NCBI GenBank assembly: GCA_018434945.1
Contig: JAHDOI010000029.1
Span: forward strand, 1 to 64,000
Reading direction: 5' to 3'
Length of the DNA: 64,000 nucleotides
Source: Selenomonadales bacterium
GTDB lineage: Bacteria; Bacillota; Negativicutes; Sporomusales; UBA7701
Numbering within the stretch: position 1 is the first letter of the stretch; every line of letters starts with the position of its first letter. Below, in pieces: positions 14,156 through 57,312 of this stretch. The notes below the pieces were generated by a model, which did no database searches, had not been told where the DNA came from, and worked only from the letters and a program-made list of their open reading frames with translations. Both the position numbers and the translations under genes were made by a program.

Positions 14156-14230
14156 TCCTCGATAGCTCAATGGTAGAGCACGCGGCTGTTAACCGCGGGG
14201 TTGTAGGTTCGAGTCCTACTCGAGGAGCCA
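14156..14230 (+). tRNA. tRNA-Asn (anticodon GTT)
   Basis: Acceptor TCCTCGA pairs with TCGAGGA. The D arm AGCTCAATGGTAGAGC, anticodon loop CTGTTAA and T-loop GGTTCGAGTCC are all present, and CCA is encoded. Confidence 0.97.
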
Positions 14231-14234
14231 AATC

Positions 14235-14309
14235 GGCCCGTTGGTCAAGCGGTTAAGACACCGCCCTTTCACGGCGGGAACAGGGGTTCGAGTCCCCTAC
14301 GGGTCACCA
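14235..14309 (+). tRNA. tRNA-Glu (anticodon TTC)
   Basis: Acceptor GGCCCGT pairs with ACGGGTC (one G-U). The anticodon loop is CTTTCAC, T-loop GGTTCGAGTCC, CCA encoded. It lies four bases after tRNA-Asn. Confidence 0.97.
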
Positions 14310-14312
14310 CTT

Positions 14313-14388
<76 letters not shown>

Positions 14389-16867: not shown

Positions 16868-18067
16868 CTAGGACGCGGACGGGTTGTCGCGTTTGAACCA
16901 GCCGCCGGGAAGCAGCGCGGCGAGGGCGATGGTGGCCGCCGGCAGGAAGGAGATGACGGTGAAGACGCTGGGGACGCCGAAATGGTCGGCTACATAGCCT
17001 AACACCGTAACGCCGATGCCGCCGAGGCCGATGCTGAAACCGATCGTGAGGCCGGCTGCCATCGCCTCGTATCCTGGCATTATTTCCTGGGCGAGCACCA
17101 GCAGGGGCGAGAAGCTCGCGATGAGGGCAAAACCGGTCGTCGCCACAAGCACTACCGTCGTGAAGCCGCTGGTGAACTGGAACAGGGCGAGCAGCGGCCA
17201 GGTTACCAGCATCGAGCCGACGATGAGCGTCTTGCGGCCGAACCTGTCGCTGAGGGTGCCGCCGACAAAAGTGCCGAACACGCCGGCCACCAGGAAGGCT
17301 GACAGCAGATAGCCGGCATAGATGGCGCTGCCTCCCAGATAATTGACATAGTAAAGGGGGATGAAGGTGGTAAGTCCGACCTGGATGGTGGTGCGGACAA
17401 GGATAAACGCCAGGAGGACGGTGATCAGGAACACCGGCAGCGCGGCGGCGGTGCGGCTTTTTCTGCCGGCGGCCGCAGTCTGGGCCATAGGCGAGACGCG
17501 GGGCAGGTTAAGCCAGAGGAGGGCGGCGGTTATGCCGGCCGGCAGGAGAAACCACGGGGTATTGGCCATCGTTCCCGGCAAGGTGAGCAGCAAACCCATG
17601 CAGATCGTTCCCAGGGCGATGCCGAGGTTGCCGCCGACGGAGAATACCGCCATGCTCTGGCCGCGCCGGCTGCTGGCGCTGACGAAATGGGCGCTTTTCG
17701 ACCCTTGGGGGTGGAAAGCCGCGACCCCCAGGCCGGTAACGACGACGATGGCCAGCAGAGATGCGTAGGAACTGACGAGACCGGTGGCGGCGATGCCGAT
17801 GCCCGAAATGAGCACACCCGCCGGGATCAGCCACGGCAGGGAAAGGCGGTCCGCCACATAGCCGAAGGCGGGTTGGATTACCGACGATGTGATATTCTGG
17901 GCCAGCACGATCATACCTACCTGGGCATACGTCAGGTCGAAAGCGTTCTTGAGAAAGGGCAGCAGCACGGGCAGCGCCCCCTGGCTGAGGTCGGTGACGG
18001 CGTGGCTGATGGCAAGGAGAATCAACGGCAGAGTCAGGACGGGTTCTTTGGCAGTTTGTTCGGACAT
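16868..18067 (-). CDS. MFS transporter, fosmidomycin-resistance (Fsr)-like
   Basis: A 399-residue major facilitator protein with about 12 membrane helices. The N-terminal SHAVTDLSQGALPVLLPFL and GLGVAAFHPQGSKSAHF patterns are characteristic of Fsr-type drug/sugar exporters. ATG 18067 has AGGAG upstream. It is monocistronic, ending at the bidirectional terminator shared with the channel gene. The substrate cannot be stated; the family name reflects an E. coli member exporting fosmidomycin. Confidence 0.85.
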   Translation of the reverse strand: MSEQTAKEPVLTLPLILLAISHAVTDLSQGALPVLLPFLKNAFDLTYAQVGMIVLAQNITSSVIQPAFGYVADRLSLPWLIPAGVLISGIGIAATGLVSSYASLLAIVVVTGLGVAAFHPQGSKSAHFVSASSRRGQSMAVFSVGGNLGIALGTICMGLLLTLPGTMANTPWFLLPAGITAALLWLNLPRVSPMAQTAAAGRKSRTAAALPVFLITVLLAFILVRTTIQVGLTTFIPLYYVNYLGGSAIYAGYLLSAFLVAGVFGTFVGGTLSDRFGRKTLIVGSMLVTWPLLALFQFTSGFTTVVLVATTGFALIASFSPLLVLAQEIMPGYEAMAAGLTIGFSIGLGGIGVTVLGYVADHFGVPSVFTVISFLPAATIALAALLPGGWFKRDNPSAS

Positions 18068-18149: not shown

Positions 18150-18178
18150 TTGAAATTATCTGTAAATTCTGTTAAAAT
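18150..18178 (+). promoter_or_regulatory. Sigma-70-type promoter of the micropeptide gene
   Basis: TTGAAA at 18150-18155 and TAAAAT at 18173-18178 with a 17-base spacer. Confidence 0.65.
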
Positions 18179-18211
18179 ACAATTGCTAATCATGGAAAAG
18201 GTGGTGGAAGC

Positions 18212-18307
18212 ATGAAAGCGACATTCGGCGATATCGGCAGACTGTTGATGCAGAGTATCGGCACCGCTTTGATCCTGTCGCTGCTTTTCTGGACCGCCGT
18301 GCCGTGA
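18212..18307 (+). CDS. Single-pass membrane micropeptide, 31 aa
   Basis: A short gene with complete signals: promoter at 18150-18178, AAAGGTGG ribosome site before ATG 18212, stop TGA 18305-18307 and a terminator at 18324-18348. The peptide has an amphipathic charged N-terminus (MKATFGDIGRLLMQ) followed by one hydrophobic helix (IGTALILSLLFWTAV) and ends right after it, like many regulatory small membrane proteins. I do not recognise a family. The compact, self-contained unit argues that it is real; function unknown. Confidence 0.65.
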   Translation: MKATFGDIGRLLMQSIGTALILSLLFWTAVP

Positions 18308-18323
18308 CGACTTGACGAATATG

Positions 18324-18348
18324 AGCCGCGCCTTTGAGCGCGGCTTTT
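18324..18348 (+). terminator. Terminator of the micropeptide unit
   Basis: AGCCGCGC (18324-18331) pairs with GCGCGGCT (18338-18345) and is followed by a short T run. Confidence 0.75.
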
Positions 18349-18351
18349 ATG

Positions 18352-18380
18352 TTGCCTGCGACGCTGCCGGATGCTATAAT
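18352..18380 (+). promoter_or_regulatory. Sigma-70-type promoter of the zinc-ribbon gene
   Basis: TTGCCT at 18352-18357 and TATAAT at 18375-18380 with a 17-base spacer, immediately after the preceding terminator. Confidence 0.7.
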
Positions 18381-18420: not shown

Positions 18421-18807
18421 ATGTGGATGACCATCAGCATGCTTATTGCCGCCTTTGCCGCTTACTGGGTGTTCAACGACTCGCGCCGTCTCGGCCACGA
18501 AACGGGAACATCCCTGATGTGGGCGCTGGGTACCTTTGCTTTTATGATCCTCTTCCTCCCGCTCTACCTAGTGTTCGGCCGCAAGCCCAAGGCCGTGAAG
18601 CGTCCCGCCGAGGTTATCGACATCGACGCCGTGCCTGTAGAGGAGACGATGCACTGCCCGATGTGCGGCGGACGGGTCAAGGAAGAATTCAAAAACTGTC
18701 CGTACTGCGGATATACGTTGAAACCGAAGTGCGAAAAATGCGGCCAGGAACTCAGAAGGGACTGGAAGACCTGCCCCTACTGCGAGACGCCGGCCGTGCC
18801 CAAGTAA
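18421..18807 (+). CDS. Membrane-anchored double zinc-ribbon protein
   Basis: A 128-residue protein with two N-terminal membrane segments (about residues 3-16 and 29-48) and a cytoplasmic tail with four CxxC knuckles (CPMC, CPYC, CEKC, CPYC), i.e. two zinc ribbons. ATG 18421 has GAGGGGGAG upstream; a longer in-frame version would begin before the promoter's likely transcript start. Such proteins are common in Firmicutes with no assigned function. A tRNA-Arg promoter follows directly. Confidence 0.8.
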   Translation: MWMTISMLIAAFAAYWVFNDSRRLGHETGTSLMWALGTFAFMILFLPLYLVFGRKPKAVKRPAEVIDIDAVPVEETMHCPMCGGRVKEEFKNCPYCGYTLKPKCEKCGQELRRDWKTCPYCETPAVPK

Positions 18808-18890: not shown

Positions 18891-18965
<75 letters not shown>

Positions 18966-57191: not shown

Positions 57192-57210
57192 AATACTGCA
57201 ACCAAATACC

Positions 57211-57298
57211 AAACCACTAGGGGAGCGTAATGCTGAGAGGCGCAAGCCGACCCTTGGAACCTGATTTCTGGTTAATACCAGCGTAGGGAAGTGGGTTT
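57211..57298 (+). promoter_or_regulatory. TPP (THI-box) riboswitch aptamer
   Basis: The conserved blocks GGGGAGC, GCTGAGA, ACCCTTGGAACCTGAT and GGTTAATACCAGCGTAGGGAA appear in the right order, enclosed by a P1 stem of AAACCAC with GTGGGTTT. It binds thiamine pyrophosphate and controls the downstream thiC. Confidence 0.97.
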
Positions 57299-57312
57299 CA
57301 CCAGGCAACTGG

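Follow-up and report, generated by a model that had tools for sequence, protein, structure and literature searches.

Comparison of ten related genomes indicates that the 31-codon frame described here is a real protein-coding gene, and it probably constitutes a monocistronic gene with its own promoter whose putative translation product is a 31-residue single-pass inner-membrane peptide. The product is most likely a regulatory membrane micropeptide, its regulatory role being inferred. Positions are those of the window, the whole stretch of 64,000 nucleotides that was analysed, and the elements of the unit and its surroundings are as follows.

16868-18067, minus strand: MFS transporter gene, upstream and divergent
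18150..18155, plus strand: -35 element TTGAAA (mean pairwise identity 0.94, n=10 genomes)
18156..18172, plus strand: promoter spacer of 17 bases, operator-like (mean pairwise identity 0.83, n=10 genomes)
18173..18178, plus strand: -10 element TAAAAT, preceded by an extended TG (identity 0.94, n=10 genomes)
18179..18211, plus strand: leader, holding the ribosome-binding site AAAGGTGG at 18197-18204
18212..18307, plus strand: 31-codon ORF for the predicted single-pass membrane peptide MKATFGDIGRLLMQSIGTALILSLLFWTAVP (ATG at 18212, TGA to 18307)
18323..18346, plus strand: terminator hairpin of 9 pairs with a short T-rich tail, TTATGTT (stem identity 0.83-0.88, loop 0.36)
18352..18380, plus strand: promoter of the next gene, TTGCCT-17-TATAAT (context, outside the unit)
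18421..18807, plus strand: gene for a membrane protein with a double zinc ribbon (Pfam Zn_ribbon_3/DZR), adjoining the unit in 10/10 genomes

All the elements that a preliminary description of this DNA had reported within 18150-18348 (a TTGAAA-17-TAAAAT promoter, a ribosome site, a frame of 31 codons and a terminator) were found where it had placed them. Its term 'self-contained' is upheld by the unit's own promoter and terminator and by the separate, conserved promoter of the next gene. Taken alone, the promoter, the terminator and the open frame are weak: scans of the window gave 4 promoter-like sites versus 1.4 expected and 7 terminator-like sites versus 4.1, and five of the six frames are free of stops across the 31-codon stretch in the window's genome. 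What raises the unit above chance is its conservation in ten genomes. The distance from the -10 element to the ATG is 32-39 bases in these genomes, and the ribosome-site region (18199-18206) has an identity of 0.72 in the ten-row alignment, versus 0.46 for the preceding leader. An Rfam search of the window returned no RNA family at the micropeptide unit. Elsewhere in the window, the same search found a three-tRNA cluster (14156-14385) and a TPP riboswitch (57209-57306), and a further tRNA lies at 18891-18962, just 3' of the zinc-ribbon gene.

Coding evidence

Identity figures are based on an alignment (A2) of ten rows, one per carrier genome. Mean pairwise identity at codon positions 1, 2 and 3 was 0.65, 0.86 and 0.44, respectively; outside the ORF, it was 0.30 in the gap before the terminator and 0.37 in the 42 bases upstream of the promoter. 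Pooled pN/pS was 0.41 in frame, whereas the remaining sense frames gave 0.93 and 1.85. Pairwise pN/pS ranged from 0.21 to 0.85 (45 pairs). The synonymous-biased changes that had been proposed as a check in relatives are thus present as coding-type substitutions. On the antisense strand, the pooled ratios were 0.98, 0.48 and 2.35; the frame at 0.48, which we take to be the one sharing third positions with the sense frame, is interrupted by a stop in 3 of the 10 genomes. The sense frame contains no stop in any of the ten and keeps 30-31 codons throughout, and one other sense frame has 1-5 stops per genome. The adverse outcome named in advance was a frame that is not conserved, or one disrupted by indels although the hairpin is kept; all ten frames are intact. 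The locus illustrates cleanly how a gene below the size range of the usual callers can be recognised from the sequence itself and afterwards confirmed in relatives.

The peptide and its predicted helix

The ten members share the consensus M-[KRN]-[AV]-[TS]-x-x-[DE]-[IV]-[GW]-x-L-L-x-x-S-x-[GA]-x-A-x-x-L, in which positions 1, 11, 12, 15, 19 and 22 are invariant in 10/10 and positions 4, 9 and 17 are nearly so. The peptide had been described as a charged amphipathic start followed by one hydrophobic helix. The helix part agrees with an AlphaFold2 prediction from the single sequence, which gave one helix over residues 3-29 with a mean pLDDT of 90.7; the start is only partly as described, with a net charge over the first ten residues of +1 in three genomes and 0 in seven. 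The best 17-residue Kyte-Doolittle mean was 1.83-2.44 across the ten members. A coding ORF of under about 50 codons and one hydrophobic helix, the features by which we assign small single-pass membrane proteins, are both found here. The conservation moment at 100 degrees gave permutation p values of 0.020, 0.037, 0.024 and 0.047 in all four windows tried, a modest signal from ten related sequences that is suggestive, not strong, of a conserved helix face. Ser15 and Ala19 are spaced as a small-xxx-small pair, a pattern known from helix packing, and the invariant Leu, Ser and Ala residues suggest packing against a partner helix.

No family in Pfam, NCBIfam or PHROGs was matched above its cut-off or below E 0.05. 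The best Pfam match of the window peptide was DUF6903 (12.7 bits versus a cut-off of 24.2), 0/12 members matched NCBIfam, and matches to PDB sequences were at chance level (best E 0.6). A literature search on small proteins by ribosome profiling in Sporomusa found nothing, and one on Negativicutes small membrane proteins and sporulation had as its sole match a paper concerning spores.

The promoter spacer

The spacer between the hexamers has an identity of 0.83, little below that of the hexamers themselves (0.94 each). The best internal control is the spacer of the zinc-ribbon promoter, for which those ten rows give an identity of 0.41, falling to 0.32 once its last three bases are left out. 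This difference between neighbouring spacers suggests that something besides the sigma factor reads that of the micropeptide gene. At 0-1 mismatches, the 26-base motif occurs once per genome in the ten carriers, always at this gene, and is absent from the other 18 genomes of the order; at up to 3 mismatches, 15 further places appear, every one of them at 3 mismatches. Together, spacer conservation and confinement of the motif to the micropeptide gene suggest a private operator. The core AATTATCNNTNAATTCTG, at up to 1 mismatch, was found at 14 places in the ten genomes, 9 of them at the micropeptide gene (the site in genome G002 exceeds the 1-mismatch limit), and by our own estimate the 5 extra places are about what chance would give. 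No second copy of the operator that would define a regulon is visible.

By eye, the spacer element might be read either as TTATC-N10-GATAA (6/10) or as a pair of AATT-type units at a distance of 11 bases. Reading it as a Fur-type box was rejected, again by eye only, on the different order of its half-sites. A regulator binding the spacer would probably be specific to the micropeptide gene. The conserved spacer is thus a direct handle on the peptide's regulation, and finding the regulator would show when the peptide is wanted.

Distribution among genomes

The unit occupies the same chromosomal place in 10 of the 28 genomes of the order, in four families, according to a 12-row profile search. 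The profile (A1) matched 11 of the 28 at E <= 0.1, from which G019 (E 0.08) was dropped as its match belongs to a different, look-alike peptide. The ten carriers are G000, G001, G002, G004 and G005 (family f1), G007 (f3), G009 and G014 (f5), and G010 and G015 (f6). The unit was not found in families f2 (2 genomes), f4 (1), f7 (12) and f8 (1), nor in G003 and G017, genomes that are 87% and 65% complete. In a single-peptide search of 60 relatives, matches ran from 97% down to about 40% identity.

The look-alike is a 30-31-residue peptide of similar design, MSxVRFRDVLxLLLQ...ALL...FWP, with a GTG start. It occurs in 3 of the 28 genomes, G019 (L011), G011 (L014) and G003 (L012); the fourth match of that search is the G002 copy of the window's own peptide family. 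Both f5 carriers hold a second copy of the micropeptide elsewhere in the genome. That of G009 (L042:4938-5604, C73) is preceded, at a distance of 57 bases, by an exact TGATWATNATTATCA, a Fur-box consensus, and is followed by a gene for a Fur-family regulator. That of G014 (L041:5022-5102, C28) apparently has a GTG start, and a Fur-box-like site, sought with the same TGATWATNATTATCA pattern, is absent from it.

When the profile was run over the class at E <= 0.01, 19 of the 380 genomes matched, and nine of the 19 lie outside the order. These nine were dismissed and are not counted, since all are short stretches within frames of 343-606 residues. In a phylum sample of 398 genomes (E <= 0.001), the window's own genome was the sole match, and we conclude that the peptide is not convincingly present outside the order in the 380 class and 398 sampled phylum genomes.

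A search with the promoter pattern gave nine matches, five of which are carriers with the peptide: Lucifera butyrica, Sporomusaceae bacterium UBA7701, Selenomonadales bacterium D180_maxbin.015 and two 'Bacillota' MAGs. The peptide is absent downstream of the other four (two Nostoc, a Prevotellaceae MAG and an 'Atribacteria' MAG). As Lucifera butyrica is a carrier with a named genome record, tests may be practical. In a 15-row tree of the transporter, peptide-bearing rows do not form one clade (p-AU 0.068), and the peptide may have arisen once or more than once.

The terminator hairpin

Across the ten rows, the stem arms have identities of 0.83-0.88 versus 0.36 for the loop, and 93.1% of cells in the stem alignment are paired versus 33-60% when the arms are slid. 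These pairing statistics support the predicted hairpin. In two of the nine stem pairs both bases have changed, and five pairs are invariant. A pattern made from the stem matched 8 places in the 28 genomes, of which 6 are at the micropeptide locus; it was drawn from these loci and misses 4 of the 10. With its pattern so nearly confined to the locus, the hairpin does not seem to be a terminator in general use in these genomes.

These features would fit a dual-function transcript of about 160-170 bases that encodes the peptide and has a second role as a regulatory RNA, exerted by the conserved 3' hairpin. The stem is kept in sequence, with more than half of its pairs unchanging, and most matches to its pattern fall at the locus, though that pattern was shaped on these same loci. 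Ordinary terminators can also be conserved, however, neither the leader (0.46) nor the third codon positions (0.44) are conserved, and covariation is weak, its score being reached by 26 of 500 shuffles. We therefore hold this reading to be possible but unlikely. Its combination with the operator, in which a regulator with essentially a single genomic target, acting at a private operator, controls an order-specific micropeptide and the same transcript acts as an RNA via the 3' hairpin, strikes us as somewhat less likely still; if it were true, a single membrane response would work through both the peptide and the RNA.

Neighbouring genes

The unit adjoins the zinc-ribbon gene in all ten carriers, and relatives of that gene occur in 26 of the 28 genomes of the order, some as weak, ribbon-only matches. 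At six loci outside the window's genus, the unit lies just downstream of an MFS gene, between the transporter and the zinc-ribbon gene. The syntenic transporter has about 440 residues and matches Pfam Sugar_tr (one scanned). We take it to be NiaP-like because, at locus L043, the MFS gene is adjoined by what is presumably the gene of a NiaR-type regulator with a 3H domain.

Such constancy of place could mean that the peptide serves the MFS transporter or the zinc-ribbon membrane protein beside it as a dedicated subunit or modulator, and both the invariable zinc-ribbon neighbour and the position between the two genes at the six loci speak for it. The window's genus, however, keeps the peptide while its best homologues of the syntenic transporter are only 60-61% identical and lie elsewhere (syntenic ones are 68-75% identical). 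The peptide thus outlives the transporter, and the adjacent NiaP-like protein is an unlikely partner. Moreover, in the region upstream of the zinc-ribbon gene in 15 genomes that lack the unit, nine have an MFS gene beside it with no peptide between (one of them, G016, has an extra stretch), and the unit and its neighbours have separate promoters. The other six (G006, G011, G013, G019, G020 and G025, the last at a contig edge) have different neighbours there. We regard a dedicated subunit of either neighbour as improbable.

Toxin and chance readings

Size, a single hydrophobic helix and its own promoter and terminator would also suit a type I toxin, a membrane-damaging peptide restrained by an antisense or adjacent small RNA. 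In two of the ten genomes (G005 and G007), a leader ACCACC could moreover pair with the ribosome site GGTGGT. That pairing is not conserved, being missing from the other eight; with clear pairing in only 2/10, concealment of the ribosome site by the leader was rejected as a general feature. The unit also sits at one fixed place across four families under protein-level purifying selection, a consensus scan placed no minus-strand promoter-like site inside it, and searches with the peptide gave no phage match and four weak plasmid matches (best E 0.6). A toxin is accordingly a rather remote reading.

That the frame arose by chance between promoter and terminator, in a non-coding small RNA or in nothing at all, could appeal to its shortness and to the several frames open in the window's genome, yet the frame kept in 10/10 genomes, the pN/pS of 0.41 and the codon-position pattern make this extremely improbable and, unless the alignments are wrong, already refute it on sequence evidence.

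Proposed mechanism

Under our preferred reading of a regulatory membrane micropeptide, the gene would be driven by its own sigma-A-type promoter, with a conserved operator-like element held between the -35 and -10 hexamers. A regulator bound at this spacer may repress or gate the gene. The peptide would then insert into the membrane as one helix, whose face of Leu12, Ser15, Ala19 and Leu22 might pack either against a second copy of the peptide or against a helix in a larger membrane protein; in the latter case, packing could modulate the activity of that larger protein.

Comparison with known systems

Prli42, a mini-protein of the Listeria stressosome, is 31 residues long. Its Pfam family is presumably DUF4044, to which none of the 12 members matched up to E = 10, subject to HMMER's filters. 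PMC6614362 describes Prli42 as very short, with one membrane span, an important cytosolic N-terminus and a highly basic N-terminal tail. On that description, the two are alike in being very short with one membrane span, whereas the N-terminus of the micropeptide has a net charge of only 0 to +1 and retains an acidic residue at position 7.

The type I toxins of E. coli are mostly 18-51 residues long, according to PMC7667032, and TisB, DinQ and others, and also TimP, are, like the micropeptide, small hydrophobic peptides. In contrast to them, no conserved antisense feature was seen for the micropeptide, which keeps a single conserved chromosomal place.

AcrZ, KdpF and SgrT of E. coli are tiny, mostly membrane-spanning proteins that bind a larger membrane protein and alter its activity, according to PMC7267776. 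The micropeptide shares with this group, as so described, its tiny size and membrane span, while partner binding is here only proposed; at 31 residues, it is shorter than AcrZ (49 residues), and Pfam and NCBIfam searches found no sequence relation. What is new in the present case is the conserved spacer, as a candidate private operator, the terminator stem kept in sequence, and the invariant Leu, Ser and Ala residues suggesting packing against a partner.
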